The notes under the pieces are model-generated. The model saw nothing but the letters and a program-made list of their open reading frames with translations. It was not told the DNA's origin and searched no databases. Below are positions 11,411 to 38,423 of a DNA stretch of 64,000 bases, in pieces (position 1 is the first letter of the stretch; each line of letters starts with the position of its first letter). Location of the stretch: positions 124,001 to 188,000 of the forward strand of contig CAMVNQ010000006.1 of assembly GCA_947168885.1 (NCBI GenBank), given 5' to 3'. The position numbers and the translations under genes were made by a program. The stretch is from an uncultured Clostridia bacterium (GTDB lineage Bacteria; Bacillota; Clostridia; Oscillospirales; Ruminococcaceae).

Positions 11411-11414
11411 ACAG

Positions 11415-11960
11415 ATGCCTGTGGTTCTTCAAAAGCTGAAAGTACTGAAACCGGTCTACGATATCACTTATAAAGTCATCCTGTTTCTCTGCAAGCTGCT
11501 GCTCATAGGCGATATTATTATCACCGTATGGGCTGTCGCAGGGCGGTATATACCTTTTATAAGCGATCCGAGCTGGAGCGAAGAGCTTGTGCTGACATTT
11601 ATGGTTTATATGGCAGTGCTGTCTGCCGCGCTCGCGATCCGTAAACGCGGACACATACGTATGACAGCGTTCGATATGTATATGTCAAAGACAGCGCTGA
11701 AAATATCCGATCTCGTCGCCGATACGGCAGTGCTCATATTCGGTGCCGTGCTGCTGATATATGGGATAAAGCTTTGCGCTTCACCCCTTTCTGAGCTCGG
11801 CAGATATATCTCACTGCCCGGACTCAGCAAATTCTGGCAGTATATGTCTATCCCGACAGCAGGTGTCGGAATGGTGATATTCGAGCTGGAACAGGTGTTC
11901 CTGAGAATTGAAGCCTTTTTTGAAAAAGATGATAAAGAAGTCAAAAAGATGGAGGAATGA
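11415..11960 (+). CDS. dctQ: TRAP transporter small permease (DctQ)
   Basis: A 181-residue four-helix membrane protein that links the binding protein to the large permease. The ATG at 11415 follows GGTGAGGAGGGGTAAACAG, a strong ribosome site four bases after the dctP stop. A longer frame exists upstream inside dctP but is not needed. Hallmarks are DPSWSEELVLTFMVYMAVL and AIRKRGHIRMTAFDMY, typical of DctQ. Its stop overlaps the dctM start (ATGA). Confidence 0.93.
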   Translation: MPVVLQKLKVLKPVYDITYKVILFLCKLLLIGDIIITVWAVAGRYIPFISDPSWSEELVLTFMVYMAVLSAALAIRKRGHIRMTAFDMYMSKTALKISDLVADTAVLIFGAVLLIYGIKLCASPLSELGRYISLPGLSKFWQYMSIPTAGVGMVIFELEQVFLRIEAFFEKDDKEVKKMEE

Positions 11961-16647: not shown

Positions 16648-17559
16648 ATGACTGAAACAGTAAATGTAACTCCGACAGACAGTCTCGCCGGAGTTCTCGG
16701 CACCGTTGATCCGGGCACGCGCATAGTGCTTGCTCCCGGGACCTATCGCGAAAAGATAGAAATATATGTTCCCGGTATCGAGATCGTGGGCGATCCTACG
16801 CATGATACGCGCATTGTCTGGGGTGATTACGCAAGAAAGCTTGACGAGAGCGGTGTTGAATATAACACTTTCCGTACATATACGGTTGCTGTTCTTGCGC
16901 CGGAGGTTACTTTCCGGAATATAACGGTTGAAAATGATGCGATGAATCCTGAATCAAAAGGTCAGGAAGTCGCACTTACAGTATGTGCGGACGGTTTTAC
17001 GGCAGAGAGCTGCCGGTTCCTTTCAACACAGGATACCGTTTTCTGCGGACCTCTCCCACCGGATCTTATCGAGAGATACGACGGCTTTCTGAAAGACCCG
17101 CTTCGTGCGGGCGGTGAGATGCGACAGATATTCAGAGAGTGCCTTATTTCCGGAAATGTGGATTTCATATTCGGCTGCGGAAGCACTCTGTTTGAGAAGT
17201 GTGAGATACGCTCGGTATATGATGTGCGGGGACACGGCTATACTGCGGCTCCGGCGCACACAAAGGAGCAGGATATAGGATTTGTGTTCAGCGCCTGCCG
17301 CTTCACCTGCGAGGAGACTGTTGCGGACGAGTTGATATTTCTTGCCCGCCCGTGGCGTGACTTCGGAAAATGCAGTTTTATTGACTGTGAATATGGAAGA
17401 CATATCACGCGGGAAGGTTTTGACAAGTGGAACGATACCGAACGTGACAAGACCGCCCGTTTTGCGGAGTACGGAAATATACCGTCCGGCAGGGTTGAAT
17501 GGGCTCGTACAATGACCGACGATGAAAAGGAAAAGCTTTTGTACTTTTTTAAAAGATAA
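16648..17559 (+). CDS. Pectin methylesterase, CE8, cytoplasmic
   Basis: A 303-residue right-handed beta-helix carbohydrate esterase that removes methyl groups from galacturonate residues. CE8 signatures are STQDTVFCG near residue 130 (first catalytic Asp region after the Gln), GNVDFIFGCGSTLFEKCEI near 170 with the second catalytic Asp, and LARPWRDFGKCSFID near 232 with the Arg-Trp pair. The ATG follows the HIT stop directly, and GGAAGGA lies 14 bases upstream. There is no signal peptide, unlike secreted plant and pathogen enzymes. It should therefore act on methylated oligogalacturonides after import. Confidence 0.9.
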   Translation: MTETVNVTPTDSLAGVLGTVDPGTRIVLAPGTYREKIEIYVPGIEIVGDPTHDTRIVWGDYARKLDESGVEYNTFRTYTVAVLAPEVTFRNITVENDAMNPESKGQEVALTVCADGFTAESCRFLSTQDTVFCGPLPPDLIERYDGFLKDPLRAGGEMRQIFRECLISGNVDFIFGCGSTLFEKCEIRSVYDVRGHGYTAAPAHTKEQDIGFVFSACRFTCEETVADELIFLARPWRDFGKCSFIDCEYGRHITREGFDKWNDTERDKTARFAEYGNIPSGRVEWARTMTDDEKEKLLYFFKR

Positions 17560-18974: not shown

Positions 18975-19592
18975 ATGCAACTGTCATTTAAACAATACAG
19001 AACAATAGATCTTATAATACTTCTTATCTTGCTGGTGGCTGCGGAGGCTTTAACAGCAGTCGCGGCAAAATACTGGTTCACAAGTGAGATATACGTTCTT
19101 TCCCCAACGGTCGCTGTCTTATGCATAGTTATGATGCGCTGGGGCGCATTTGCCGCTGTACACGCGGCTGCCGCAGGCGTTGCGCTATGCATTGTGACAG
19201 GGGCTGCACCCGGACAGTTCGCGGTCTATTGCATCGGAAACTGCTTTGCACTGCTTGGTCTGCTTTGGTTCAGGTTCCTCGGTAAGGACAAGGTCAGGGC
19301 TAAGGTGCTGACAACAGCACTTTACACAGTTACGGTGTTCTGCGCGGTGCAGATAGGACGTTGGATCGTGGGACTTTTCCTCGGCGGCTCGCTCAGCGAC
19401 ATAGGGGGTCTGTTTGCAGGAGACTCGCTCTCCCTGGTCTTTGCGATAATAGTAGTTCAGCTTACAAGACGGCTTGACGGGGTTTTTGAGGATCAGAAGA
19501 CATATTTGCTTCGTACTGAATCCGATCGCAGGAAAAAAGAGGCTATGGATCCCGGCGATACCGAATACGGCGAGGAAGCCGGACATTATTGA
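18975..19592 (+). CDS. Multi-helix membrane protein, possibly ECF S-component-like
   Basis: I do not recognise this 205-residue protein firmly. It has five or six hydrophobic helices (about residues 11-30, 40-57, 60-78, 84-100, 113-138 and 150-167) and a charged, acidic tail. The LSPTVAVLCIVMMRWGAFAA segment and small-residue-rich helices recall substrate-binding components of ECF vitamin transporters, but no family signature is certain. It starts 12 bases after the GltD-like gene, so the two probably work together. A good ribosome site (GGGAAGA) precedes the ATG. Confidence 0.55.
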   Translation: MQLSFKQYRTIDLIILLILLVAAEALTAVAAKYWFTSEIYVLSPTVAVLCIVMMRWGAFAAVHAAAAGVALCIVTGAAPGQFAVYCIGNCFALLGLLWFRFLGKDKVRAKVLTTALYTVTVFCAVQIGRWIVGLFLGGSLSDIGGLFAGDSLSLVFAIIVVQLTRRLDGVFEDQKTYLLRTESDRRKKEAMDPGDTEYGEEAGHY

Positions 19593-19637
19593 TAACAGGT
19601 ATTACTCATCGAATACAAAACAAGGAGGATCTTCCGT

Positions 19638-20702
19638 ATGAGTGCAAAAGTTACCGATTTTCTTATCTTTGACGAAGAAAGCGGCACTTACGTTGAAAAC
19701 CCTGAACAGGTGGTCAGGGACGATGTCGAAAAGCATCACTGGCTTAATGTACTGAAAACGATCCTGAAAGACTGGCGGCTTTATCTTATGCTCGTGCCTA
19801 TGATCGTTGTATTCCTGCTGTGGCGCTACTTCCCGATGTATGAGCTTCTCGGAAGCTTCAAGCTCACAGAGGATGCAAAAGCAGTCGCAGATCAGTATTA
19901 CTCGGGTTTCTCGTATTTCAGAACGCTTCTTACCGGACTTGGGAATGTTGAACTTTCGGCACAGTTCTGGCGCGCATTCAGAAATACATTCCTGCTCAGC
20001 TTCTACGGTCTTGTGTTCGGATTTCCTGTGCCGATCATAATCGCGCTGTTCTTTAACGAGATACGCTCGAATATCGCTAGAAGCATCTATCAGGTGCTTA
20101 CATATCTCCCGAAGTTTATGTCAACAGTCGTTATGACTTCGCTCGTACTGATGCTCGTCAAGCAGGGTTCCGATACATCGGGAATGCAGCCCGGCGTTAT
20201 CTCACAGCTTCTTGCAAATCTTGGACTTATATCAAATGAAACGGCTTATGCCGGTATGCTGAACAATCCGTCATTCTTCAGGGCTATATATCAGATCAGC
20301 GGTATCTGGGAGAGTGCGGGCTACGACAGTATAGTATTCTTCGCCGCGGTGATAGCTATCTCACCGACGAGCTATGAAGCAGCGCAGATAGACGGTGCGG
20401 GAAAAATGGCTCAGATGAAATATGTTGTTCTGCCGGCTATCCTTTCGACCATAGTCATAATGCTTATAACGAGGATAGGTTCACTGCTGAATATCGGATA
20501 CGAAAAAGTCCTGCTGCTTTACAACCCGAACACCTATGTCACAGCGGATGTCGTTTCCACGTTCGCACAGAGAAACGGTATCGCCGGATCACTGAAAGGC
20601 CTTGCGTCGGCGGCCGAGATGATGAACAACATCATCGGAATGCTATTGGTCATCGGCGCGAATACGATCGCCAAGAAAGCGTCGGATACGTCACTATATT
20701 AA
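19638..20702 (+). CDS. Carbohydrate ABC transporter permease, LplB type
   Basis: A 354-residue membrane subunit of a CUT1 sugar importer. After a cytoplasmic N-terminus of about 50 residues come six helices. The conserved cytoplasmic EAA loop reads SYEAAQIDGAGKMAQMKYVVLP near residue 252, the contact for the ATPase. YFPMYELLGSFK and the GIWESAGYDSIVFFAAV region match the LplB/YteP group that imports pectin-derived oligosaccharides in Bacillus relatives. GGAGG stands upstream of the ATG. It pairs with the next permease, 18 bases downstream. Confidence 0.92.
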   Translation: MSAKVTDFLIFDEESGTYVENPEQVVRDDVEKHHWLNVLKTILKDWRLYLMLVPMIVVFLLWRYFPMYELLGSFKLTEDAKAVADQYYSGFSYFRTLLTGLGNVELSAQFWRAFRNTFLLSFYGLVFGFPVPIIIALFFNEIRSNIARSIYQVLTYLPKFMSTVVMTSLVLMLVKQGSDTSGMQPGVISQLLANLGLISNETAYAGMLNNPSFFRAIYQISGIWESAGYDSIVFFAAVIAISPTSYEAAQIDGAGKMAQMKYVVLPAILSTIVIMLITRIGSLLNIGYEKVLLLYNPNTYVTADVVSTFAQRNGIAGSLKGLASAAEMMNNIIGMLLVIGANTIAKKASDTSLY

Positions 20703-20720
20703 AGGTAAAGAGGTTGCTCT

Positions 20721-21617
20721 ATGAAAAGAAGACTTGAGGTTTCGGAGCTTATCTTCAAGGTAATAAGCTATCTGCTTCTTACCATGTTTGCGATAGGCTG
20801 TCTATATCCGTTCATCTATACGATATCATCGGCAATAAGCGGATATGAGGAGGTAAGAGACTCCACGATTATCCTGCTTCCGAAGAATATTCAGTTTGAC
20901 GCGTTCAGGGACGTGTTCAATGACAATGTTTTCTGGAACTCATATACAAACACACTTTTCCTTACTTTCTATGGTACTATATGGGAAATGTTACTGTCCG
21001 TTTTCGGCGCATACGCTCTCTCAAAGAAGCGTCTGATGTTCCGCAAGGGGTTCAACTTCTTCCTCGTTTTCACAATGTGGTTCAGCGCCGGCATGGTGCC
21101 TCAGTACCTGAACTATCTTGCAACAAAGCGTGCGTTCCAGGGCATTGGAATCATGGACGACAAGTGGCTCGTAGTTATCGCTATGGGTATGCAGGCTATG
21201 AACATCATTCTCCTGCGTAACTCATTCGAGAGTGTACCGTCGGAGATAGAAGAAGCTGCGATAGTGGACGGTGCAACGGAGATGCAGGTACTCCGGAGGG
21301 TTTACCTGCCGATGAGCAAATCGATACTTGCTACTGTGGCGCTGTTCTTCGGAATATCGCGCTGGAACGGATACTTCTGGGCGAGACAGATGATCTCCAA
21401 CACGAACGAACAGCCGCTTCAGGTTTATCTGAGACTGCGACTTGAAGAATACTCCGACCCGGAGCTTACGACGAACTGGCAGATGAGCCACAGTTATGCG
21501 CCGGACTCGGTGATCTACGCACTCATTGTGTGCTCGATAATACCGATACTTGTTATCTACCCGTTCATACAGAAGTATTTCGCCAAGGGCGTGAATATGG
21601 GCGGTGTAAAAGAATGA
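20721..21617 (+). CDS. Carbohydrate ABC transporter permease, LplC type
   Basis: A 298-residue six-helix permease, partner of the preceding LplB-like protein. It has YPFIYTISSAISG near the N-terminus, and AYALSKKRLMFRKGFNFFLVF and WFSAGMVPQYLN typical of LplC/YtcP proteins. The EAA loop reads EIEEAAIVDGATEMQVLRRV near residues 174-193, followed by YLPMSKSILAT. An LplBC pair without a fused ATPase depends on a separate MsmK-type ATPase; two are present downstream (25306 and 37317). The end is KYFAKGVNMGGVKE, a family ending. Confidence 0.93.
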   Translation: MKRRLEVSELIFKVISYLLLTMFAIGCLYPFIYTISSAISGYEEVRDSTIILLPKNIQFDAFRDVFNDNVFWNSYTNTLFLTFYGTIWEMLLSVFGAYALSKKRLMFRKGFNFFLVFTMWFSAGMVPQYLNYLATKRAFQGIGIMDDKWLVVIAMGMQAMNIILLRNSFESVPSEIEEAAIVDGATEMQVLRRVYLPMSKSILATVALFFGISRWNGYFWARQMISNTNEQPLQVYLRLRLEEYSDPELTTNWQMSHSYAPDSVIYALIVCSIIPILVIYPFIQKYFAKGVNMGGVKE

Positions 21618-21731
21618 TCGCGATGTCGGACGCAGGGCTTCATGCGCTCTGCGGTTGATATATAAAGGACTTTCCGGGAAGTGAGAAATCCCGACAAAGT
21701 AAAACGTAAATATATCCAAAGGAGGATACAA

Positions 21732-23987
21732 ATGAAGACAAAGAAGATAACGGCATTGATCCTTTCAACGGTGCTTGCATCGACCGCTATGCTTTCCGGA
21801 TGCGGTGGCGGAACAACATCGGGCGGCAGCGGTGACAGCGGAAATGCCGCAACTACCACAACAGCCGGTACGACAAAGTCAGGAGAGACCAACGGTGATG
21901 CCGGTACACAGCCGGCCGAGACCAAGGAACAGCCTACAGAAACACTTACTGCCGATGCACTCACATACGCACCCGGCACGGTACTTCGTACAGCCTGCGG
22001 CTACAACAGTGACAAGACAGGTATGAGCTTCACGGCAGACCTTGCAGGTGAAGGCATTACCCTTGCCGACGGTAAGACCTATAACTCCGGCGACCTTAAG
22101 CCCACATGGCAGGAAGTAGAGAAGATACTTGAGATCAAGATCGAAGATAAGTATCAGGGCAACAACGCAACCAATGAGTACCAGTACTGGGATGCACAGC
22201 TCGATCAGGTCGATATGCTCAGCGGTACAGCTACGCTCCTTTCCGAGAACGGACAGCAGGGCAAGCTTGTCAACATAGCAGAACATCTCGATGAAATGCC
22301 TAACTTCAAGGCTTATCTCGAAGCTAACCCGATCGTTCGCCTTTCCATTACCGGTGCGGCAGCAGGCCCGAACGCAGGCGCTATCTATTTCTCTCCCTAC
22401 TTCGACGGTGTTGACGATATTGAGCGTATGCCCCTTATGAGAACCGACTGGGTAGAGAAGCTTCTCAACGGTTCCGGCGAATTTGCGGCTGACAAGTGCA
22501 ACTTTACCGCAACTCCCGCTTACACACCTTTCATGCCCACTTCCGGCAGCATCGACATTGAAGTTGTAAAGGCTGACGGTTCCGCACTCGAAACAATCAA
22601 GAAGAATTATGATGCTTACGGCAATATCGTTGACAAGATGAACGCTGTCGGCGCTATGGACGGTGTTTCTGCTGTCAATATGCTCCGTGAGTATATCGAC
22701 AAGACATACGACGGATACTATGGCGAAAACAGAGCTGACCTCTTCATCGGTCAGAACGCTGCATGGGATGTTGATGAGCTCGTAGCACTTCTCCGCTGCG
22801 TAGTTGCCAACCCCCAGACACTCAACGGTACAGAAAGCGTACAGGGTCTCCACAGCCGTGAGGACAACAACAACCAGAGACGTGTTGATATGTTCCGTTT
22901 CGCAGGTTCGCTCTTCGGTGTACGTGGTCTTGAATCCAGACTCGACTACCTCTATGTAGGCACAGACGGCGACCTCCACGATGCACGTAACGAGACTGCT
23001 ACATATGAAGCTCTCTCCAAGATGCACGACATGGTAACAGAAGGCCTTATTTCTCAGGCATTCGTTAATGCAGAAGAAGTCAAGACAGAAAAGTACCTCG
23101 CTGATGACAGTGGTTTCATGCACTATGACTACAACCAGACACAGACCGCTTACAACGCTACTGTTCTTGATACTGCAAACGGCGAAAAGTACATGGCAGT
23201 TATGGTTCCTGTTTCCCGTTGGAATGACGGTACAGAGAAGTATATGAGATTTACAGAGTCCTGGCGTTCTGTCAAGACAGACGGTTGGGCAATCTCCATT
23301 GCCGGCGTTGGCGGCAATACCGATAAGCTCAATGCTTGTCTCAAGCTCATCGACTATGCTTACAGCCCCGACGGTCAGGTCCTCATGTCCTACGGCCCCG
23401 ATGCTTTCGTTAAGCATGACGATGCAGGCAATGTTGTAACATTCGACTTTAACGGCAGACAGTGGCCGGTTATTTCCGATAAGTCCTACGAAGATCTCTG
23501 GGCACTCCAGAACGGTAACTACACAAACTATGCACGTTACTACATCGGTTCTACACTCAGCTTCGTAAAGAGCCAGGCGTTCGAGTATCAGTGCACACAT
23601 GAAGTCGGCAAGGAAGGCGCAGGTCATATCTCCAGAGCTATCGCTCTCGGTTCTATAAAGCACCCTGCACTTGCGATCGCTGACAACTCATGGTACACAT
23701 CTGTTCCTGCTGTACTTCCGCAGGAAGTTGCAGAGGCGAACGCTATAAATGAGCTTACACAGCTCAGCGCTTCCGGTATGTTCGGTGCTGCAAAGGATCA
23801 GATGAACCTTCTTGTTGACATCATAAGCAAGGGCTTCACAGGTGAAGCCGGCGCAGATGCAGCCGCAACAGCGGACAAGATCTCCAAGTCTGTCGCAGAC
23901 GGCGGCTGGGGCGGTTCAACTTACCTCGCACGCAGAAACGAAGCATGGAAGAGACTGCTCATGTTCTACAAGAGCATCAACGGCTGA
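21732..23987 (+). CDS. Large carbohydrate-binding lipoprotein of the LplBC importer
   Basis: The ATG at 21732 after AAAGGAGGATACAA is the start, and earlier in-frame codons lack a ribosome site. The product has 751 residues. Its lipoprotein signal ends STAMLSGCGGG with the acylated Cys at residue 22. A Thr/Gly/Ser-rich linker follows to about residue 65. The remainder should be a solute-binding fold of the CUT1 type. This is much longer than the common 430-550 residues. Codon choice is markedly more uniform than in neighbours (mostly CTC, AAG, GCA, TCC), suggesting very strong expression. Position after the two permeases marks it as the binding protein, with oligogalacturonides as likely ligand (inference). 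Confidence 0.88.
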   Translation: MKTKKITALILSTVLASTAMLSGCGGGTTSGGSGDSGNAATTTTAGTTKSGETNGDAGTQPAETKEQPTETLTADALTYAPGTVLRTACGYNSDKTGMSFTADLAGEGITLADGKTYNSGDLKPTWQEVEKILEIKIEDKYQGNNATNEYQYWDAQLDQVDMLSGTATLLSENGQQGKLVNIAEHLDEMPNFKAYLEANPIVRLSITGAAAGPNAGAIYFSPYFDGVDDIERMPLMRTDWVEKLLNGSGEFAADKCNFTATPAYTPFMPTSGSIDIEVVKADGSALETIKKNYDAYGNIVDKMNAVGAMDGVSAVNMLREYIDKTYDGYYGENRADLFIGQNAAWDVDELVALLRCVVANPQTLNGTESVQGLHSREDNNNQRRVDMFRFAGSLFGVRGLESRLDYLYVGTDGDLHDARNETATYEALSKMHDMVTEGLISQAFVNAEEVKTEKYLADDSGFMHYDYNQTQTAYNATVLDTANGEKYMAVMVPVSRWNDGTEKYMRFTESWRSVKTDGWAISIAGVGGNTDKLNACLKLIDYAYSPDGQVLMSYGPDAFVKHDDAGNVVTFDFNGRQWPVISDKSYEDLWALQNGNYTNYARYYIGSTLSFVKSQAFEYQCTHEVGKEGAGHISRAIALGSIKHPALAIADNSWYTSVPAVLPQEVAEANAINELTQLSASGMFGAAKDQMNLLVDIISKGFTGEAGADAAATADKISKSVADGGWGGSTYLARRNEAWKRLLMFYKSING

Positions 23988-24009
23988 TTAACAGTCTGAT
24001 AATAATCCT

Positions 24010-24162
24010 GACCCGTTTCCGACGGGTCGGGATATAACAAGAAAACATTTCCCCCTGGAGTAATATCGGTATTATTGTCGGGGAAGGACGACCTTCCCCG
24101 CGTAATACCGGATCCCGGTCAGAGTACAGATGTCAGTTATCTGTATTCTGACGGAGATCCGG
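24010..24162 (+). promoter_or_regulatory. Cluster of strong, partly exclusive RNA hairpins
   Basis: Between the binding-protein gene and the next gene lie GACCCGT/ACGGGTC (24010-24028); a long stem CGGTATTA...GGGGAAGG-ACGA-CCTTCCCC...TAATACCG (24067-24110); and CCGGATC...GTCAGAGTACAGAT / ATCTGTATTCTGAC...GATCCGG (24108-24162). A fourth stem, CCCC...TAATA-TCGG-TATTA...GGGG (about 24050-24083), uses bases of the second, so the two cannot form together. No U run follows. Likely roles are 3'-end protection of the abundant binding-protein mRNA or attenuation of the genes downstream. Confidence 0.6.
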
Positions 24163-24201
24163 CTGAGAATAAAACATTTTATATATAAAGGAAGGCTGCT
24201 T

Positions 24202-24807
24202 ATGTATAAAAAACAAATGCTAATGCAAAAAATCGTGTGTATGATGACGCTCATAGCTTCCGCACTTGTATTCGTAAGCTCTCTCGGGCTTTCCACCGAT
24301 CTGTATGATGCGCTCTCCAAAACGATACTCTATCCGGACTATGACCTTGAATACACTTCGGTCACGGGTTCGAGAGTGTACTATGATATGTTCGGGTTCA
24401 ACTCGGCATTTACAGTTGTCGGCATAGTACTGATCCTTGTGAACGTTCTGTTGTTTCTTACCAACACGCATTCACGCAGAAAATACTACATCGGCAACTA
24501 CATAGCTACCGGTCTTTCCGTTGCTGCCGCTATAGGCGTTTCTGCATGGTGCATACCGCAGATCGCTGATTATAAATCACAGTTTCAGAACAATGTTGAT
24601 TTTGAGCAGCTCAAAGCGTTTTCAAAAGACTGGGGTACATTATATATAGGGCCGGAAGATACATTCTGGTTCGATATATGTTTCGTTGTGTTCGGAATAT
24701 TGCTGCTGTGTGCTGCGTTGCTTGTTCTCAACTGCATTTTCAAGGTCAAGGTTATGAAAGCTGAACAGCGTGCTATCGGTAGCGGAAAGGAAGTGCAAAA
24801 TGGCTGA
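24202..24807 (+). CDS. Four-helix membrane protein of unknown function (first of four)
   Basis: The ATG at 24202 follows AAAGGAAGGC, and a longer in-frame start at 24130 lies inside the hairpin region. The 201-residue product has four membrane helices (about residues 9-30, 67-88, 97-119 and 157-182). A mostly polar loop with many Tyr and Asp lies between helices 1 and 2, and a 35-residue loop between 3 and 4. No family motif is recognised. It lies between the transporter's binding-protein gene and its ATPase, and overlaps the next gene by eight bases, so it probably belongs to the importer or its control. Confidence 0.75.
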   Translation: MYKKQMLMQKIVCMMTLIASALVFVSSLGLSTDLYDALSKTILYPDYDLEYTSVTGSRVYYDMFGFNSAFTVVGIVLILVNVLLFLTNTHSRRKYYIGNYIATGLSVAAAIGVSAWCIPQIADYKSQFQNNVDFEQLKAFSKDWGTLYIGPEDTFWFDICFVVFGILLLCAALLVLNCIFKVKVMKAEQRAIGSGKEVQNG

Positions 24808-25303
24808 GATGAAAGTGGAAACGATCAGAAAGGATCGGCTTAGATTTACAAAGAATAAGCTTTTCGCAAATCTGATCATTCTTTCAATCGTTATGAACGC
24901 TCTGTATTTTGTCAACATTTACAGAACTGATGTCGGCAACTATTACTACAGTCTCATGATAGGCGCTTCCGTTGTTTATAACCTTGTATTCATGCTCGTT
25001 GCATTTCTTGCGTCTGAGGGCGTGAAGAACTACAAGATCGGGTATGGTTACGCGGCTATCGTACTTGGGCTTCTTCAGGCAGGAAGAATCTTTTACCTGC
25101 CCATGAATGCACTTAATACGCCTAATCCCAAGGTAGGTGCCGAGAACACGACGGTAATGACGGGCGGTCAGTTCTCTTTCGTAGCGATTTGTCTTGGCAT
25201 ATCTGCGGTACTGCTCATTGTTGCGGGCGTTACGGGCATCATGAAAACAATGACGCTCAACAGCTACCGTGCCGAGCTTGAAAAAAACAGTAAGAGGGAT
25301 TAA
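24800..25303 (+). CDS. Four-helix membrane protein of unknown function (second of four)
   Basis: The ATG at 24800 lies just inside the preceding gene with GGAAGTGCAAA upstream. It gives 167 residues with a basic cytoplasmic N-terminus (RKDRLRFTKNK) and helices at about 20-41, 48-70, 79-100 and 126-148. The loop before the last helix is NPKVGAENTTVMTGGQFS. No motif is recognised. It ends two bases before the ATPase gene starts. The tight spacing suggests that this protein, the one before it and the ATPase are made together. Confidence 0.75.
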   Translation: MAEMKVETIRKDRLRFTKNKLFANLIILSIVMNALYFVNIYRTDVGNYYYSLMIGASVVYNLVFMLVAFLASEGVKNYKIGYGYAAIVLGLLQAGRIFYLPMNALNTPNPKVGAENTTVMTGGQFSFVAICLGISAVLLIVAGVTGIMKTMTLNSYRAELEKNSKRD

Positions 25304-25305
25304 CC

Positions 25306-26364
25306 ATGAGCGATCTTAAACTAAAACATCTCGAAAAGGTTTATGACAATAAAGTCAAGGCTGTTCATGATTTCAACCTTGATGTAAAAGACGGCGAGCT
25401 TATTGTTCTTGTCGGACCGTCCGGCTGCGGAAAATCAACGACTCTGCGTATGGTAGCGGGACTTGAGGATATATCTTCCGGAAGTCTTATCATTGACGGA
25501 AAAGATGTCACAAAAATGCCGCCGAAAGACCGCGATATAGCCATGGTATTCCAGAACTACGCTCTGTACGGCCACATGACGATATATGAGAACATGGCGT
25601 TTTCCATGATGCTCCGTAAAGAAGATAAGAACGTGATACATCAGAAGGTCCTTGCCGCGGCGGAGATACTCGATCTTACAAGCCAGCTCAACAAGAAACC
25701 GAGCCAGCTTTCCGGCGGTCAGCGGCAGAGAGTCGCAATGGGTCGTGCTATTGTCCGTACCCCAAAGGTATTTCTGTTCGACGAACCTCTCTCTAACCTT
25801 GACGCAAAACTCAGAAGTGCTACACGTCGCGAGATATTACTGCTTCATAAGCGCCTGAATGCGACGATGCTGTATGTAACTCACGATCAGACCGAGGCTC
25901 TGACTCTTGCGGACAGGATAGTATGTATGTCTATGGGTCATGTTCAGCAGATAGGGACACCGCTCGAACTCTATGATAATCCTGCAAACCTGTTTGTGGC
26001 AAGCTTTATCGGACTTCCGCCGATGAATCTGTTCGATGTGGAGATCCGTAACGGTAAGGCTGTATGCGCAGACTTTGAAGTCGATCTTTCCGAAGAAGAT
26101 AAAGAGATCCTTTTACCGTATGAGGGAAAGACGGTGACTATGGGTGTTCGTCCGGAAAATGTGACGGAAGGCGGACATATCGGAGTAGATGTGTTCTCAA
26201 ATGAGAACCTGGGATATAATACACTTGTTAACGGTACAGCGGGCAAGCACAAGATAACCTGTAAATTCCGTGACTGGTGTACATACAAAGCGGGCGATAA
26301 AGTCATGGTCTCCTTCACGAAGAAGCACTTCTTTGACAAGGATACGACCAAAGCCATAAGATAA
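25306..26364 (+). CDS. Sugar ABC transporter ATPase, MsmK/UgpC type (first copy)
   Basis: A 352-residue nucleotide-binding subunit. Walker A GPSGCGKST (about 39-47), Q-loop VFQNYALY, signature LSGGQRQRVAMGRAIVR, Walker B VFLFDEPLSNLD and the switch His in YVTHDQTEAL are all intact. The C-terminal domain from about 240 has the OB-fold regulatory segment of MalK-like proteins (TMGVRPENV). It should power the LplBC permeases encoded upstream. Compared with the second copy at 37317, its OB-fold part is clearly different in sequence, so the two may serve different permeases or respond to different signals. It sits in the middle of four membrane-protein genes. Confidence 0.94.
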   Translation: MSDLKLKHLEKVYDNKVKAVHDFNLDVKDGELIVLVGPSGCGKSTTLRMVAGLEDISSGSLIIDGKDVTKMPPKDRDIAMVFQNYALYGHMTIYENMAFSMMLRKEDKNVIHQKVLAAAEILDLTSQLNKKPSQLSGGQRQRVAMGRAIVRTPKVFLFDEPLSNLDAKLRSATRREILLLHKRLNATMLYVTHDQTEALTLADRIVCMSMGHVQQIGTPLELYDNPANLFVASFIGLPPMNLFDVEIRNGKAVCADFEVDLSEEDKEILLPYEGKTVTMGVRPENVTEGGHIGVDVFSNENLGYNTLVNGTAGKHKITCKFRDWCTYKAGDKVMVSFTKKHFFDKDTTKAIR

Positions 26365-26380
26365 CAAGGGAGAAATACAG

Positions 26381-26959
26381 ATGGCAGATCAGAAGACAAA
26401 AAAACAAGGACGCGGCATCAGGGAAGTGTTCCGTAAATACATGGTCGCCCTAAAGCGCTCGCCTCAGTCTATACCGCTTGCGACGCTTATCGTCGCGTTC
26501 CTTATGTATTCTCTTAACCTTTCCTCCATAGCAAATACTACCGCGAGGATCAACGGTGCAAATATGGGACAGTGTGAGTTTGTGGCTATGCTGTTTTCGA
26601 TACTTGCGTTTGTAGTGTTCCTCAGAGCATTCTCCAAGCGCAAAAAAGCAAACAAGGTCATGTTAGGCCTGCTCGGCGGTATGCTCGCACTGCTTATATT
26701 CGTTGATGTGGTTTATATCACTCGTATTATAAGTGCCACCACACGTTCGGAAAACAAGATAATCATTGATGAAAGTTCAAGATACATAAGTACGGCTCAG
26801 AATGTGGTCACGCTGCATGTAGTGTTCATAGGAGTAACAGCGCTGCTGCTCATAACGCTTCCGCTTTACTCGAAAGCTATCAGGAAAATAAAGACTTCTA
26901 TCGATGTCGAGGGCAACGGGAATATGGCTGCTATCGATATAGATGACGACGACCGGTGA
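26381..26959 (+). CDS. Four-helix membrane protein of unknown function (third of four)
   Basis: A 192-residue protein with a strongly basic N-terminal 30 residues, helices at about 32-50, 63-82, 93-115 and 140-162, and an acidic C-terminus ending DIDDDDR. RAFSKRKKANKVMLG separates helices 2 and 3. No known motif is seen. It starts 16 bases after the ATPase gene with a GGGAGAAATA ribosome site and ends three bases before the next gene. The N-terminal RGIREVFRKYMVALKRSPQS looks like an amphipathic cytoplasmic segment near the membrane. Confidence 0.72.
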   Translation: MADQKTKKQGRGIREVFRKYMVALKRSPQSIPLATLIVAFLMYSLNLSSIANTTARINGANMGQCEFVAMLFSILAFVVFLRAFSKRKKANKVMLGLLGGMLALLIFVDVVYITRIISATTRSENKIIIDESSRYISTAQNVVTLHVVFIGVTALLLITLPLYSKAIRKIKTSIDVEGNGNMAAIDIDDDDR

Positions 26960-26962
26960 TAT

Positions 26963-27610
26963 ATGGCTAATAAGAAGAAAAAGCAGATTTCAGAGCCGGC
27001 GGAACGATCGGCAGCTGATTATTACAACCTTAAGACTGATGCTGTAGAGCGCCTTGTCAATGCAGAAAACGCTCCCGAAGTATCGGAGGCAGAGATCAAC
27101 AGATACAGATCGAAAAAGAAGATCCGTATCCCCGCGTGGCTGAAGATAATATTTGTAAAATTCTGGTTCGCTGGTGCGGTGTGCTATTTCTTCCTGTGGG
27201 GACTCGGAATGTACTTGCAGGGTATTGAACTTATGCTGGTGCTGGCGATCGGACTCGGTGTGGTGACCGATGTTCTGACGAACAGGTTCCTGCGGCGGTT
27301 CGAGCCTACGGAAGGTGCTTATGATAAGTGGATGATGGTGACGACGAGAAAGTTCTGGTCGATATTTCTCAACGTTCTCTATGCCGGAGTCCTTTTGTAC
27401 TGTGTGTTCCGTACATACTACGGGATTAATGTGCTGATGGGTGTTAATCCTGATGTCGGACACACGGAAGAAGAGGGTATGCTCGGTGTCGAACCTATAC
27501 TTTTCGGACTGTTTTACCTTGGGTTCGATATGCTGCTTATACTTATGAAAAACACTTTGATAAAGATATTCCGCGATGCCGAGAAAAAAGTTAACGGCAG
27601 CGGGAAATAA
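26963..27610 (+). CDS. Four-helix membrane protein of unknown function (fourth of four)
   Basis: A 215-residue protein with about 55 polar N-terminal residues (KKKKQ..., then an acidic stretch), then helices at about 60-83, 86-107, 132-152 and 176-196. An invariant-looking KWMMVTTRKFWSIFLNVLYA lies between helices 2 and 3. The first part of the membrane domain reads PAWLKIIFVKFWFAGAVCYF. No family is recognised. It follows the third membrane gene by three bases and precedes the GH28 gene by 12. All four of these genes encode four-helix proteins but share no obvious sequence, so they may form a hetero-oligomer. Confidence 0.72.
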   Translation: MANKKKKQISEPAERSAADYYNLKTDAVERLVNAENAPEVSEAEINRYRSKKKIRIPAWLKIIFVKFWFAGAVCYFFLWGLGMYLQGIELMLVLAIGLGVVTDVLTNRFLRRFEPTEGAYDKWMMVTTRKFWSIFLNVLYAGVLLYCVFRTYYGINVLMGVNPDVGHTEEEGMLGVEPILFGLFYLGFDMLLILMKNTLIKIFRDAEKKVNGSGK

Positions 27611-27622
27611 TATGGAGATAAA

Positions 27623-29164
27623 ATGATAAAGACACTGTTTACAGGCTCTGTGAGCGCCTGCTTTGAGCTCGATAACGACAGCGCTTATCGCTGTGATAAT
27701 GAATATTCAGTCAGGCTCGACGGAGCGACGCTTTTCACTTCGGATACCAACGTTTTTTCACTTTTCGGACTGAAGCCGGACAGAGAATATACTGTAAGCG
27801 TTTCAGATCATGGTGAGATCAGATTCCGGACTATGCCTGAGGCCTGTGCGGTGAATGTCAGAGATTTCGGAGCAGTCGGCGACGGTATGACTGACGATAC
27901 ACAAAGCATACAGACGGCCGTTAACTGTCTGCCGCCGGGCGGAAGACTCTGCTTTCCGGAGGGGGTGTATCTGACCGCCCCCATTACGCTAAAAAGTCAC
28001 ATAACGATAGATGTTTCGGAAAATGCCGTGCTGCTTGGCTGCACGGATACTTCAAAGTATCCGGTGATACCCGGGACTGCGCCTGACACCGAGACCGGCG
28101 AAGAAGTGCATTTCGGTGCATGGGAAGGCAATGCGGTGCCAATGCACCAGTCGCTTATTTTCGCTGAGTACGCCGAGGACATACAGATCGTAGGCAGAGG
28201 AAAGATAGACGGAAATGCGCAGAACAGTGAATGGTGGATAAATGTTAAGGAACGTCAGATCGCACGTCCGAGACTGATGTTTTTCAACCGCTGCAAGAAC
28301 ATAACGATACATGGCATAACAGCGCAGAATTCTGCGTCGTGGCAGTTCCACCCGTATTTTTCGCAGGATCTCAGGTTTTTCGATATTTTGGTAAACGCGC
28401 CAAAGGACAGCCCGAATACCGATGCGCTTGACCCGGAAGCCTGTGACAATGTTGAGATCATCGGCTGCCGTTTCAGTGTCGGCGATGATTGTATTGCAAT
28501 AAAATCGGGAAAGATAGAGCTCGGAAAAAAATTCAGGAAGCCTGCCGATCATCATACGATCCGCAACTGTCTCATGCAGAACGGACATGGTGCCGTAACG
28601 CTCGGCAGCGAAATGGCCGGCGGTGTTAAAAACCTCACTGTTGACAGATGCGTATTCAGCCGGACAGACCGCGGACTTCGCATAAAGACCCGCCGCGGAC
28701 GAGGAAAATACGCGGTGATCGACGGTGTGACTTTCGAGAATATCCTGATGGACGGTGTTATGACCCCGATCGTTATGAATATGTGGTACAACTGCTGTGA
28801 CCCGGACAGATATTCGGAGTACAATACGACACGCGAAAAGCTTCCGGTTGACGACAGAACACCCTATCTCGGCAAGTTCACATTCCGCAATATGAAGTGC
28901 CTCAACTGCCACGTTGCAGCCTGCTACTGTGACGGTCTGCCAGAAATGCCGATAGATGAGATAACCGTTGAAAACATAGATTTCACCTATGACCCGGACG
29001 CGAAAGAGGGCGTTCCCGCGATGAAGAACAACGCCGTTAAGATGCGAAGGGCAGGAATGTATTTCGATAATGTCAGAAAGCTTACCGTAAGGAACGTAAG
29101 TGTTGACGGCTGTGACGGAGAAGAGCTTGAAACGCATAATGTCGGCGAGCTCATCAAGGAGTAA
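27623..29164 (+). CDS. GH28 polygalacturonase, intracellular
   Basis: A 513-residue glycoside hydrolase that cleaves alpha-1,4-galacturonan. After an N-terminal beta-sandwich-like part (1-70) comes the beta-helix domain, starting NVRDFGAVGDGMTDDTQSIQ near residue 78. Catalytic motifs are NTDALD (265-270, with the catalytic Asp), GDDC (287-290), GHG (321-323) and RIKT (353-356). The N-terminus MIKTLFTGSVSACFELDNDS has no signal peptide, so it should hydrolyse imported oligogalacturonides, probably as an exo-enzyme. The stop is two bases before the GH105 start, in the same operon. Confidence 0.95.
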   Translation: MIKTLFTGSVSACFELDNDSAYRCDNEYSVRLDGATLFTSDTNVFSLFGLKPDREYTVSVSDHGEIRFRTMPEACAVNVRDFGAVGDGMTDDTQSIQTAVNCLPPGGRLCFPEGVYLTAPITLKSHITIDVSENAVLLGCTDTSKYPVIPGTAPDTETGEEVHFGAWEGNAVPMHQSLIFAEYAEDIQIVGRGKIDGNAQNSEWWINVKERQIARPRLMFFNRCKNITIHGITAQNSASWQFHPYFSQDLRFFDILVNAPKDSPNTDALDPEACDNVEIIGCRFSVGDDCIAIKSGKIELGKKFRKPADHHTIRNCLMQNGHGAVTLGSEMAGGVKNLTVDRCVFSRTDRGLRIKTRRGRGKYAVIDGVTFENILMDGVMTPIVMNMWYNCCDPDRYSEYNTTREKLPVDDRTPYLGKFTFRNMKCLNCHVAACYCDGLPEMPIDEITVENIDFTYDPDAKEGVPAMKNNAVKMRRAGMYFDNVRKLTVRNVSVDGCDGEELETHNVGELIKE

Positions 29165-29166
29165 AA

Positions 29167-30312
29167 ATGTACGAAAAGTATAAGGATATCGACAGATATA
29201 TTGAGAGACTGCTTGACGGCTCCACTCCCGACAAGCCGCTGTGGAATATAGAAAAGATAATTGAAGGAAAACCGCCTGCGTGGAACTACATAGACGGCTG
29301 TATAATCACCGCACTTCTTGAAGTTGCAAAGATCACCGGCAAAAATAAGTATTATGATTTTGCGGAAAGCTTCATCGACTGGTATGTCCGTGAGGACGGT
29401 ACCATCGTCGGCTATTCGCAGGAAAAATACAATCTCGATGATGTGAACGAAGGGCGCGTACTGTTCGATCTGTATAATGCGACAGGCAAGGAAAAATACA
29501 GAAAAGCGATAGAGCTCCTGCGTGAACAGCTTGAAAAGCAGCCCCGCACAAACACCGGAAATTTCTGGCATAAACAGATATATCCGAACCAGATATGGCT
29601 TGACGGTCTGTATATGGCGCAGGTATTTTATCTTAGGTATCAGCAGGAGTTCGGAAACGGTGACTGTTCCGATACAATGGATCAGATACGAAATGCAAGA
29701 CGGTTGATGTTCGATGAAAAAAAGAAGCTCTACTATCATGGATGTGACTGCTCTAAAACAGCGTTCTGGGCTGATAAGCAGACAGGCTGCTCGAAGAACT
29801 TCTGGCTGCGTTCAATAGGCTGGTTTACTGTGACTCTTGCAGACATCATAGGTTATATAAATAATGACTCCGACAGGAAAGAGCTTATCGCTCTGTTCCG
29901 CGAGATCATAGACGGTATCGCTCAGTATGCAGACCCGCAGACGGGTATGTATTATCAGGTAGTTGACTGCGGCAGACGCGAGGGTAATTACCTTGAAACC
30001 AGCGGCAGCAGTATGATCGCTTATGCAATGATGAAGGGCGCAAGACTCGGTGTTCTCGACAGTAAGTATTCTGATATCGGACATCGGACTTTTGACGGCA
30101 TTTGTAACAAATATCTGAAGATAAGCGAAAGCGGAGAGCTCGCTCTTGGCGGAATCTGCCTTGTGGCCGGTCTCGGACCGGAGAACAACAGGCGCCGTGA
30201 CGGAACGTATGAATACTACATCTCAGAACCCGTGGTCGAAAATGACGCAAAGGGTGTTGCTCCGTTCCTGCTGTGCTACACAGAGGTAATGAGGAGAGTT
30301 CAGCAGAAATAA
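29167..30312 (+). CDS. GH105 unsaturated rhamnogalacturonyl/galacturonyl hydrolase
   Basis: A 381-residue (alpha/alpha)6-barrel enzyme of the YteR/YesR family. It removes the unsaturated galacturonate left at the non-reducing end by pectate or rhamnogalacturonan lyases, giving the substrate for KduI after ring opening. Key segments are YNLDDVNEGRVLFDLYNATG (Asp near residue 93), WHKQIYPNQIWLDGLYMAQV (catalytic Asp near 147), and WLRSIGWFTVTLADI. There is no signal peptide, so it is cytoplasmic. No lyase gene is in the window, so its unsaturated substrate must come from enzymes encoded elsewhere or from other species. Confidence 0.94.
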   Translation: MYEKYKDIDRYIERLLDGSTPDKPLWNIEKIIEGKPPAWNYIDGCIITALLEVAKITGKNKYYDFAESFIDWYVREDGTIVGYSQEKYNLDDVNEGRVLFDLYNATGKEKYRKAIELLREQLEKQPRTNTGNFWHKQIYPNQIWLDGLYMAQVFYLRYQQEFGNGDCSDTMDQIRNARRLMFDEKKKLYYHGCDCSKTAFWADKQTGCSKNFWLRSIGWFTVTLADIIGYINNDSDRKELIALFREIIDGIAQYADPQTGMYYQVVDCGRREGNYLETSGSSMIAYAMMKGARLGVLDSKYSDIGHRTFDGICNKYLKISESGELALGGICLVAGLGPENNRRRDGTYEYYISEPVVENDAKGVAPFLLCYTEVMRRVQQK

Positions 30313-30331
30313 AGGATTTACACAAACTATC

Positions 30332-31729
30332 ATGAAAAAAGTTAAAATCGCTTATATCGGCGGCGGATCAAAGGCATGGGCAAGAGTTTTTATGACGGAT
30401 CTTGCGCTTGCTGATGATCTGGGAGGAGAGATCGCTCTGTATGACATCGATATTCCCGCCGCACAGCTTAATAAACAGATAGGAGCACGTATAAACGAAG
30501 CTCCCGAAACGATAACCAGATGGGATTATAACGTTTACGAAGCTCTTGGGGATGCGCTTGACGGTGCGGATTTCGTGGTATGCTCGATACTTCCGGGAAC
30601 ATTCGACGAAATGGCGGCTGATGTTCATTTCCCCGAAGAATACGGCATATACCAGTCCGTAGGTGATACCGTAGGTCCGGGCGGTGTGTTGCGAGCTATG
30701 AGAACAGTCCCGATCTATGAGTATTTTGCCCGTGAGATAAAGGCTCACTGCCCCGGTGCATGGGTGCTTAATCTTACAAATCCTATGACGGCGTGCACTA
30801 AGACGCTGTATGATGTATTTCCGGAGATAAAGGCTTTCGGCTGCTGTCATGAGGTTTTCCATGCACAGGAATTCCTCTGCTGCGTTGCAAAGGAAATGCT
30901 CGGTGTCGAAAGACCTCACCGCAGCGAAATTAAGATAGATGCCTGCGGTGTCAATCACTTCACATGGATTACGGAAGCGGAGTACAACGGCACGGATATG
31001 CTCGGGATACTGCCTGAGTTTATAGACAGGTTCTATGAGACCGGCTACTGTGAGCGTGAAGGAGTTGCTCCCGGCGATTTCCGCGGTGATCCGTTCCTTT
31101 ACGGAAACAAAGTAAAAATGGATCTTTTCCGACGTTTCGGCGTTCTTGCCGCCGCAGGCGACAGACATCTTGCGGAGTTTATGGACAGATCATGGTATAT
31201 AAAAAATGAAGAATGCGCCGAAAGCTGGCTCTTCCACCTTACTTCGGTAGATTACCGGAAAAAAGATATGAGGGAGAAGATCGAACGTTCACACAGGCTT
31301 GCTGACGGCAGCGAGAAAATTGAGGTAAAGCATAGCGACGAAGAGTGCGTTGAGCTTATAAAAGCTCTGGCCGGAGTCATTCCACCGCGCATATCAAACG
31401 CCAATGTAATAAATGTCGGACAGATGCCCGATCTTCCTTTCGGTTCGGTCGTAGAGACAAACTGTGTTTTCTCACAGAACAGCCTCAAGCCGATCACTGC
31501 GAAGAGACTTCCGCGTGACGTGAACGCACTTGTTCTCAGAAACGCGATCAATATAGAAAATACTTACTATGGCATAAAAGAACGTAGTTTTGACAGGATA
31601 TTCGAGGCGTTCATGAACCAGCCGTTATGCAGCGGACTTTCGCTTGAAGACGGCCGCGCTTTGTTCAGGCGAATGGCGAAGGCGACCGGGGAATACCTTA
31701 AAGACTATTATCCCATGGAGAAACTTTAA
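30332..31729 (+). CDS. GH4 glycosidase, probable alpha-galacturonidase (LplD-like)
   Basis: A 465-residue NAD- and metal-dependent GH4 enzyme. The Rossmann motif is IAYIGGGSKAWARVFMTDLA at residues 6-25. Metal and active-site signatures are NLTNPMTACTK near 149, FGCCHEVFH near 169 (the Cys-His metal pair) and ACGVNHFTWITEA near 208. GH4 includes alpha-glucosidases, alpha-galactosidases and the LplD-type alpha-galacturonidase. The pectin setting, next to GH28 and GH105 genes, favours galacturonidase, releasing single galacturonates for UxaC. Cytoplasmic, as expected for an enzyme that needs NAD. Confidence 0.88.
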   Translation: MKKVKIAYIGGGSKAWARVFMTDLALADDLGGEIALYDIDIPAAQLNKQIGARINEAPETITRWDYNVYEALGDALDGADFVVCSILPGTFDEMAADVHFPEEYGIYQSVGDTVGPGGVLRAMRTVPIYEYFAREIKAHCPGAWVLNLTNPMTACTKTLYDVFPEIKAFGCCHEVFHAQEFLCCVAKEMLGVERPHRSEIKIDACGVNHFTWITEAEYNGTDMLGILPEFIDRFYETGYCEREGVAPGDFRGDPFLYGNKVKMDLFRRFGVLAAAGDRHLAEFMDRSWYIKNEECAESWLFHLTSVDYRKKDMREKIERSHRLADGSEKIEVKHSDEECVELIKALAGVIPPRISNANVINVGQMPDLPFGSVVETNCVFSQNSLKPITAKRLPRDVNALVLRNAINIENTYYGIKERSFDRIFEAFMNQPLCSGLSLEDGRALFRRMAKATGEYLKDYYPMEKL

Positions 31730-33561: not shown

Positions 33562-34533
33562 ATGGACAACAAAAAATTTCTTGAACAGCTTGAATGTACA
33601 GGTATAGTTCCGGTAATCAAGCTTGAGAACACAGCAGATGCTGTAAATCTTGCAAAAGCTCTTTACGACGGCGGTATCAGATGTGCAGAAGTGACATTCC
33701 GCGCAGAGGGAGCCGATAAGGTCATTGCGGATATGGCAAAAGCGTATCCGGATATGCTTGTCGGAGCCGGTACCGTACTTACTACCGAACAGTGCGACCG
33801 TGCTATTGCTGCCGGTGCAAAATTCTGCGTAGCGCCTGGTCTCAACCCGACAGTCGTAAAGCACTGCCTCGACAAGGGCGTGCCCTTTACTCCGGGTGTT
33901 GCAAACGGCTCGCAGATAGAGCAGGCAATGGAACTCGGACTTGATTTTGTAAAATTCTTCCCCGCAGAGCAGGCGGGCGGACTGCCTTACATCAAGGCAA
34001 TATCCGCGCCCTATTCGTCGATGAAGTTTATGCCTACAGGCGGCGTCAACGAGAATAACCTCAACACTTACCTTTCATTCAAAAAGATCGTATGCTGCGG
34101 CGGAAGCTGGATAGTTCCGGATAAACTCGTAAAGGCGGGCAAGTGGGAAGAGATCACGGCGCTTTGCCGTTCTGCGGTGAACAAGATGCTCGATTTCCAG
34201 ATGGTACATATCGGTATCAACTGTGATAACGAGAACGAAGCAGGCGATGTTTCCTCGAAGTTTGAAAAAATGTTCGGCTGGACACAGAAGATCGGCAACA
34301 GCAGCATTTTTGCAGGATCGTTCATAGAGTGCATGAAGTCCCCGTTCAAGGGCACAAAGGGACATATCGCTGTATCCACGATAAATGTGAACAGAGCGGT
34401 ATATCAGCTTAAGTTACAGGGTATAGAAGCGGATATGTCCTCTGCAAAATACGATGCCGACGGCAGAATGACAGTTGTCTATCTCAAGGACGAAATAGGC
34501 GGATTTGCTGTTCACCTTGTAGAAAAGAAATAA
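33562..34533 (+). CDS. eda: KDPG aldolase fused to a C-terminal VOC-like domain
   Basis: A 323-residue protein. Residues 1-208 are a bifunctional KDPG/KHG aldolase, splitting KDPG into pyruvate and glyceraldehyde-3-phosphate: catalytic Glu43 in AEVTFR, GAGTVLT at 69-75, the Schiff-base Lys131 in DFVKFFPAE, and PTGGV at 158-162. Residues about 211-323 are an extra domain resembling the glyoxalase/VOC superfamily (FQMVHIGINCDNENEAGDVS, MFGW, HIAVSTINVNRAVYQLKLQG, then GGFAVHLVEK). Ordinary Eda proteins end near residue 210. Whether the added domain binds metal is not clear. A single His and Glu pattern is incomplete. Confidence 0.9.
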   Translation: MDNKKFLEQLECTGIVPVIKLENTADAVNLAKALYDGGIRCAEVTFRAEGADKVIADMAKAYPDMLVGAGTVLTTEQCDRAIAAGAKFCVAPGLNPTVVKHCLDKGVPFTPGVANGSQIEQAMELGLDFVKFFPAEQAGGLPYIKAISAPYSSMKFMPTGGVNENNLNTYLSFKKIVCCGGSWIVPDKLVKAGKWEEITALCRSAVNKMLDFQMVHIGINCDNENEAGDVSSKFEKMFGWTQKIGNSSIFAGSFIECMKSPFKGTKGHIAVSTINVNRAVYQLKLQGIEADMSSAKYDADGRMTVVYLKDEIGGFAVHLVEKK

Positions 34534-37316: not shown

Positions 37317-38423
37317 ATGGCATATTTAACATTACGCGGTATCAATAAGATCTACCCAAACGGCTATCATGCCGTACATGATTTCAATATGGAGATCGAA
37401 AAGGGCGAGTTCATCGTTTTCGTCGGCTCATCGGGCTGCGGTAAATCCACTACTCTCCGAATGATCGCCGGACTTGAAAATATCAGTAAAGGCGAGTTCT
37501 ATATTGACGGCGAAAAAGCGAACGATAAGGGTCCGCGTGAGCGCGGTGTGGCAATGGTATTCCAGAGCTATGCACTTTATCCTCACATGACGGTGTACGA
37601 TAACCTCGCTTTCGGACTTACACTCCAGGGTGTTGACGATGATGTTATAGAACAGAGAGTACAGTCAACTGCGAAAATACTCGGTCTTACGGACTATCTC
37701 GAAAGACTTCCGAGAGAGCTTTCCGGCGGTCAGCGTCAGAGAGTCGCAGTAGGGCGCGCAATAATCCGTAAAGTCGATATATTCCTTATGGATGAGCCGC
37801 TCTCCAATCTTGATGCGAAGCAGCGTGTAACGATGCGCTCCGAAATAACACAGATCCATCGTGAGACCGGTGCAACCACCATATATGTTACACATGACCA
37901 GACCGAAGCTATGACAATGGCAGACAGGATAGTCGTTATGAAAGACGGCTATATCCAGCAGATAGGCACACCGTATGAGCTTTATTTCAATCCGGTCAAT
38001 ATGTTCGTAGCAGGATTTATCGGAGAACCGCCGATGAATTTCATCGAGACCACGATCCGGAACGGCAGACTTGATCTGAAAGAAAACAAGATCGACCTCG
38101 GTGCAGTTGCCGATCAGTCTGTGCTGGATCAGTATGATGGTCAGAAAGTGATATTCGGATTCCGTCCCGAGGCGGTAAAAGTCGTGATAGGCGGTGAGAC
38201 TGTAAGCAAGGCGTACCATGTGCACTGCTTTACCAATCTCGTAGAGTTGCTCGGTGACAATACAAACGTTTACGTCAACTTTGACGGTGTAAACAGCATA
38301 TTGAAAGTAGATCCCCACCAATCTCCCGATGTGGGATCCGACTTTGAGTTCGCTATACCTTTTGACAGCGTATATCTGTTTGACAAGAATACCGAAAAGC
38401 GTATAAAACTCAGAAAAGAATAG
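37317..38423 (+). CDS. Sugar ABC transporter ATPase, MsmK/UgpC type (second copy)
   Basis: A 368-residue ATPase subunit for CUT1 importers. Walker A GSSGCGKST near residue 39, Q-loop VFQSYALYPHMTVYDNLAFG, signature LSGGQRQRVAVGRAI, Walker B IFLMDEPLSNLD, switch YVTHDQTEAM. The C-terminal OB-fold contains VIFGFRPEAVKV. It is not next to permease genes, which fits an ATPase shared among several importers. The region before the ATG has only a weak ribosome site (GAAG at three bases). It differs from the copy at 25306, so redundancy is only partial. Confidence 0.93.
   Translation: MAYLTLRGINKIYPNGYHAVHDFNMEIEKGEFIVFVGSSGCGKSTTLRMIAGLENISKGEFYIDGEKANDKGPRERGVAMVFQSYALYPHMTVYDNLAFGLTLQGVDDDVIEQRVQSTAKILGLTDYLERLPRELSGGQRQRVAVGRAIIRKVDIFLMDEPLSNLDAKQRVTMRSEITQIHRETGATTIYVTHDQTEAMTMADRIVVMKDGYIQQIGTPYELYFNPVNMFVAGFIGEPPMNFIETTIRNGRLDLKENKIDLGAVADQSVLDQYDGQKVIFGFRPEAVKVVIGGETVSKAYHVHCFTNLVELLGDNTNVYVNFDGVNSILKVDPHQSPDVGSDFEFAIPFDSVYLFDKNTEKRIKLRKE

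Follow-up and report, generated by a model that had tools for sequence, protein, structure and literature searches.

Background

In excerpts from the literature, type I ATP-binding cassette (ABC) importers are presented as assemblies of a pair of membrane domains, a pair of ATPases and a binding protein (PMC7658222), and the alginate importer as an AlgM1-AlgM2/AlgS-AlgS complex with AlgQ2 (PMC5717064). The locus analysed here lies in 64,000 nucleotides of DNA (the window, meaning that whole stretch) from an uncultured Clostridia bacterium of the Ruminococcaceae (assembly GCA_947168885.1, contig CAMVNQ010000006.1, positions 124,001 to 188,000). It consists of nine adjacent genes on the + strand (18975 to 27610), coding in this order for a small membrane protein named S5, two permeases (LplB and LplC), a large solute-binding lipoprotein (SBP), two four-helix membrane proteins (M1 and M2), an ATPase and two further four-helix membrane proteins (M3 and M4). 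We propose, with a probability of roughly 0.6, that the nine genes encode one importer, in which a core of the AlgM1M2SS/AlgQ type works with obligate accessory membrane subunits on uronan oligosaccharides. No such system was found described in the open-licence PubMed Central literature on pectin importers and on S components with sugar transporters.

Conservation of the cassette

A search with an M3 profile, using one genome per species, yielded 287 relatives, of which the best 80 loci were read. The order of the cassette was intact in all 80, of which 59 were complete and 21 were cut by contig ends, the missing genes falling off the end, within 1.5 kb. The carriers include Ruminococcus albus 8 (L084) and assemblies labelled Oscillospiraceae, Lachnospiraceae and Gemmiger. 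One core gene was split over two frames in three of these loci (the SBP gene in L085, lplC in L087 and lplB in L132).

The genes also occur together. Among 99 related genomes, M4 was detected in 19 and SBP in exactly the same 19, with LplB at 73-100% identity in 18 of them; in the nineteenth (G052) the contig begins inside the SBP gene. The next LplB homologues, at 40% identity (G089 and G065), sit in operons without M genes. In a sample of the order (295 genomes), M1 was found in seven genomes, and M3 and M4 in the same seven plus G176. For M3, hits at E<=0.1 occurred in 19 genomes, eight of which were accepted; the other 11 were taken as chance, including a match in G328 (1.3e-4) inside a 977-residue frame. 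Seven of 13 genomes with M1 hits and eight of 16 with M4 hits were likewise accepted as real. The G176 locus (L062, G176:C91) is a contig of 4.3 kb with the end of an ATPase gene, divergent M3, M4 and glycoside hydrolase family 28 (GH28) genes and then another gene of SBP-like type; searches of the same genome found no M1 and no M2. A sample of the phylum gave the window genome only (1/398). A class sample gave four of 341 genomes, with one further carrier (G914), a genome from another order in which all nine genes follow in sequence, then GH28 and GH105. Identity to the window proteins is here 30-33% for S5 and M1-M3, 57% for LplB, 55% for LplC and 72% for the ATPase. The set is thus more than a chance assembly, and wherever the contig was long enough, in the 80 loci and the stretches from related genomes, the M genes adjoined the importer genes and did not lie mostly away from them.

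The cassette genes are under purifying selection. In comparisons of the window with two relatives, the ratio of nonsynonymous to synonymous substitution rates (dN/dS) was 0.05-0.11 for S5 and M1-M4 and 0.01-0.04 for LplB, LplC and the ATPase. Against L063, dS was 2.0 for M1 and 1.6 for M2, values near saturation and about 2.5 to 4.5 times those of the other seven cassette genes (0.45-0.65), pointing to a joint exchange of M1 and M2 by recombination; the comparison with L089 gave no such contrast.

A second cassette beside other enzymes

The M4 profile found a second place in the genome G333 (E 1.8e-10). The genes there encode LplB and LplC, a large binding protein, a pair of small membrane proteins, an ATPase and a second such pair, and are followed by genes for a DUF4962-domain enzyme and for an enzyme with heparinase II/III and alginate-lyase domains. 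When all 139 frames of this stretch were searched, the profiles of M1, M2 and M4 selected the frame in the corresponding slot (3.2e-4, 6.4e-4 and 1.9e-13, respectively). The M3 profile did not pick the third small membrane protein, which owes its assignment to position and hydrophobicity only. S5 was not found among the same frames; all S5 genes seen belong to the other cassettes, most of them of the pectin type. As this cassette stands beside different enzymes, the arrangement M1-M2-ATPase-M3-M4 is not restricted to pectin.

The arrangement was compared with the surroundings of other MalK-type ATPases, of which seven genomes contain 48: seven in main cassettes, one in the second cassette of G333 and 40 others. 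None of the 26 among these 40 whose flanks were read has four-helix gene pairs on both sides.

The four-helix membrane proteins M1 to M4

A sequence-only reading of this region had noted four genes for proteins of 167-215 residues with four hydrophobic segments each, and these were recovered as + strand open reading frames: M1 (24202 to 24807, 201 residues), M2 (24800 to 25303, 167 residues), M3 (26381 to 26959, 192 residues) and M4 (26963 to 27610, 215 residues, with an N-terminal tail of about 60). The mechanical open reading frames of M1 and M2 begin upstream, at 24130 and 24770, and the starts given here are favoured by relatives. The tight packing around the ATPase gene was also as described: M1 and M2 overlap by 8 bases (an overlap found in 58 of 75 loci), and the gaps are of 2 bases between M2 and the ATPase, 16 between the ATPase and M3, and 3 between M3 and M4. 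By the same scan, four segments were counted in most orthologs (M1 65/74, M2 65/75, M3 62/72, M4 64/75), the others having three or five.

Profile searches agreed with the lack of a recognised motif and the low visible similarity to one another that had been noted. No Pfam or NCBIfam model reached its cut-off for M1-M4 of the window, and wider sets gave weak, scattered Pfam matches. All six pairwise profile comparisons were negative with shallow and wider alignments alike; a common origin was thus rejected at the sensitivity of profile comparison, with alignments of low depth (effective number of sequences, Neff, 1.9-3.6). DUF2569, DUF6057 and, on M1, ECF_trnsprt were dropped as candidates because they were below cut-off in the window proteins and matched few members (6/38, 11/34 and 1/38, respectively). 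Small membrane proteins of the DUF624/YesL type are encoded near LplBC operons, and this identity was also considered for M1-M4 and rejected, no match being listed in the Pfam results.

The N-terminal tails are basic in all four proteins. At the C terminus, the tails of M1, M2 and M4 are basic and that of M3 is mixed, and the middle loop is neutral in M2 but basic in the other three. By the positive-inside rule, these charges would fit a topology in which the N and C termini are cytosolic and two loops face the outside. Only one TGA separates M3 from M4, which are in the same frame, and the pair was folded as a read-through. In the resulting model (mean predicted local distance difference test score, pLDDT, of 85; predicted template modelling score, pTM, of 0.69) both proteins are helical and are connected by a loose joint at 183-209. 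M3 appears in it as a generic four-helix bundle, and no ABC membrane domain was listed for the model, in a structure search that mainly tested M3, barely touched M4 and excludes nothing. A likeness of M3 to TARP and Cav gamma (VIA-align) was tied with designed bundles and was dropped. The M3 frame of L060 (8906-9853, G207) is 316 residues long in all, with an additional hydrophobic domain at its N terminus, and is possibly a natural fusion of another membrane part to M3.

The intergenic stretch between SBP and M1 (23988 to 24201, + strand) contains three strong hairpins, with a folding energy in the window, where folding was tested, of -90.8 kcal/mol (z -8.2 against 200 shuffles); the gap has a median length of 138 nt over 72 loci. 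Internal terminators in ABC-importer operons are reported for Clostridia in an excerpt of one study (PMC9045158). By analogy of position, the hairpins may cause SBP to be made in larger amounts than M1-M4 and the ATPase. Compared with shuffles, promoter-like sites were depleted (13 against 20.4) and terminator-like sites more numerous (23 against 13.4), and these counts were not used as evidence.

S5, a fifth small membrane protein

The four membrane genes of the sequence-only reading are real, but their number is five in pectin-type cassettes, as S5 (18975 to 19592, + strand, 205 residues) had been overlooked. S5 is the first gene in all 59 complete loci, and its predicted fold is that of the S component of an energy-coupling factor (ECF) transporter, with a C-terminal helix that bears a conserved R-x2-DG-x2-EDQ-x2-YL-x-R motif. 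The protein diverges fast (median identity to the window copy 50%, versus 82% for LplB), and its best-conserved stretch is residues 161-185, at and beyond the end of the S fold. None of the 13 S5 members scanned matched a Pfam S-component family. An AxxxA motif in helix 1 of S components marks EcfT binding; such a pattern occurs within the first 38 residues in 28 of 61 S5 rows. The absence of EcfT was considered as an argument against a plain S component and failed, an EcfT/CbiQ homologue being present in all 13 cassette genomes tested.

Importer core and Q loop of the ATPase

Both permeases, LplB (19638 to 20702) and LplC (20721 to 21617), match BPD_transp_1 above cut-off. LplB, for which alone the AlgM comparison was made, aligns to AlgM1, its nearest solved relative, at 3.6e-63. 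The closest solved relatives of SBP (21732 to 23987, 751 residues) are AlgQ2 and AlgQ1; AlgQ2, the nearest, matches at 1.1e-8 by phmmer, with the best stretch at residues 387-560 and most of the rest unmatched by sequence. The ATPase (25306 to 26364), of the MalK/UgpC type, matches ABC_tran and OB_MalK above cut-off, and AlgS is its third-ranked solved relative (7e-101). By these similarities the core would be of the AlgM1M2SS/AlgQ type (CUT1), a type of uronan importer.

The Q loop of this ATPase reads FQNYALYG. The proline of the pattern FQxYALYP is absent from all 75 readable cassette ATPases, which have G, N, S or A instead, and likewise from those of the second cassette of G333 and of G914. 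It is present in 30 of 33 other ATPases from the same loci (the remaining three being outside the pattern), in all 22 pattern-matching ATPases of L191-L213 other than L196, and in five solved relatives. Work on MalK places the Q-loop region in contact with the permeases' coupling helices. A tree of 43 rows unites the cassette ATPases in a single group (97/92), in which the G333 copy has a long branch.

The sequence-only reading had overlooked a second ATPase of the MalK/UgpC type in the window (37317 to 38423, + strand), whose Q loop is ordinary (YP). A second MalK-type ATPase was seen in the fetched flank of 30 of the 80 loci; it may work for other importers or form a pair with the ATPase of the cassette.

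Galacturonan island and probable substrate

As had been noted, the operon includes LplBC, the 751-residue lipoprotein and pectin hydrolases, and it lies inside an island for galacturonan breakdown. A pectinesterase gene precedes the cassette (16648 to 17559), and M4 is followed after 12 bases by genes for a GH28 polygalacturonase-type enzyme (27623 to 29164), often next after M4 in relatives as well, a GH88/GH105-type unsaturated uronyl hydrolase (29167 to 30312) and a GH4 enzyme (30332 to 31729), all on the + strand. The island also encodes a short-chain dehydrogenase, a 2-keto-3-deoxy-6-phosphogluconate (KDPG) aldolase, a KduI-type isomerase, an enzyme of the mannitol-dehydrogenase family, an altronate dehydratase and a uronate isomerase. 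From this neighbourhood, the substrate probably consists of methyl-esterified oligogalacturonides. Pectinesterase and GH28, like the GH88/GH105-type enzyme, are without a hydrophobic N-terminal segment, and the first two therefore suggest that methyl-esterified oligomers enter the cell whole.

Other genes of the island were also recorded. The KDPG aldolase (33562-34533) extends by about 120 residues beyond its Pfam domain (match 10-201 of 323), and many relatives can be aligned to it from end to end. A gene for a binding protein of the tripartite ATP-independent periplasmic (TRAP) transporter type, with two following frames (10352-13261), and a chemoreceptor gene downstream of the uronate genes (42915-44861) suggest further uronate uptake and sensing in the same island.

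Proposed function of the cassette

One machine is the simplest account of the nine genes, because the gene set is so stable. LplB, LplC, an ATPase dimer and the large lipoprotein would form the core for uronic-acid oligosaccharides, and M1-M4, joined by S5 in pectin-type cassettes, would assemble in the membrane around LplBC. Their extracytoplasmic loops would most likely hold the large binding protein on the outside, and the tails of M1-M4, with the conserved tail of S5, would contact the ATPase or the coupling region on the inside. Such docking and coupling might allow long or charged chains to be passed on without release. More tentatively, and with somewhat less than even chances, this may be a new architecture among ABC importers, in which a core of the AlgM1M2 type functions only within a complex of nine or more gene products that includes four mutually unrelated four-helix subunits and a subunit whose S fold is borrowed from ECF transporters, adapted to the import of long charged fragments of at least two different uronans in Gram-positive gut bacteria. 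The sequence-only reading had likewise proposed an extra membrane complex that gates, couples or regulates the importer; order and shared presence in the 99 genomes bear out the dedication to the importer, and contact, gating and coupling are inferred only.

Alternatively, M1, M2, the ATPase, M3 and M4 might be a separate ATP-driven membrane machine, with LplBC using the ATPase at 37317. The ATPase gene lies exactly between the two membrane-gene pairs and has an unusual Q loop where the second ATPase has an ordinary one, a strong hairpin element divides SBP from M1, and M1-M2 look block-exchanged in one comparison. However, M4 occurs only where SBP does among the 99 genomes, a second ATPase is found in the fetched flank of only 30 of 80 loci, and the fetched stretch of the second cassette in G333 holds only its own ATPase. 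We therefore consider this separate machine unlikely, and a second transporter driven by the cassette ATPase, as had also been suggested, is less likely than an importer complex. That the M proteins are sensors, regulators or anchors outside the transporter, for example for the cytosolic pectin enzymes, is quite unlikely. Small four-helix proteins are capable of such roles and the generic bundle fold of M3 is no argument for transport, but in G333 the M proteins are retained next to other enzymes, their gene order on both sides of the ATPase is constant in 80 loci, and none of the window proteins matched a sensor or regulator domain above cut-off, matches to signalling families in the wider sets being weak and few. 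As for S5, its predicted fold and the EcfT/CbiQ homologues would agree with a plain S component of the vitamin type that draws on the cell's shared ECF module and is simply co-transcribed. Its lead position in all complete cassettes, its fast divergence around a strongly conserved stretch at residues 161-185 and the AxxxA pattern in fewer than half of the rows make this very unlikely.

Several observations weigh against the proposal of a single importer. Contact of M1-M4 and S5 with LplBC or the ATPase is inferred only, and the pTM of 0.69, although compatible with M3 and M4 packing together, is only suggestive and no proof of contact. The conserved order can be explained by co-regulation or joint transfer too, and the 80 loci were chosen through M3, as the best of 287 relatives only. 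Given the single grouping of the cassette ATPases, the altered Q loop may go back to one historical event and not to a repeated functional link. S5 is absent from the second cassette of G333, so that the M1-M4 type in general can do without it, and no sequence kinship to M3 is seen in the protein at the third position of that cassette. Finally, G176 is a possible exception to the M1-M4 set.

If the proposal is true, a set of five extra subunits would change the picture of type I ABC importers, and S5 would link two importer classes that are treated as separate. The cassette may also offer a handle on how gut Clostridia take up pectin fragments big enough to need an intracellular esterase and polygalacturonase.

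Comparison with known systems

Among four-helix channel auxiliaries (TARP, Cav gamma and CD20), the likeness to M3 may be only a common arrangement, since designed bundles and talin score about equally. DUF624/YesL proteins are likewise small membrane proteins encoded with LplBC-type importers, but no DUF624 match is listed in Pfam for M1-M4 or S5. With the S components of ECF transporters (ThiT, RibU, PanT, FolT and BioY), S5 shares the predicted fold; unlike them, it has no Pfam S-component match, carries an added conserved C-terminal helix and is strictly linked to a sugar-type importer, in a cassette without an EcfT or EcfA gene.

The closest described system is AlgM1M2SS-AlgQ2 of Sphingomonas sp. 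A1 (PDB 4tqu and 4xtc), to whose AlgM1, AlgQ2 and AlgS the LplB, SBP and ATPase of the cassette are related, and with which the uronic-acid substrate class, judged here from the gene neighbourhood only, would be common. The cassette SBP exceeds the solved chains of AlgQ2 (492 and 516 residues) by about 240-260 residues, and the Q loop of the cassette ATPase is without the proline that AlgS has. Unlike the alginate importer, the cassette has five more membrane genes, whose products would be subunits of the same transporter.

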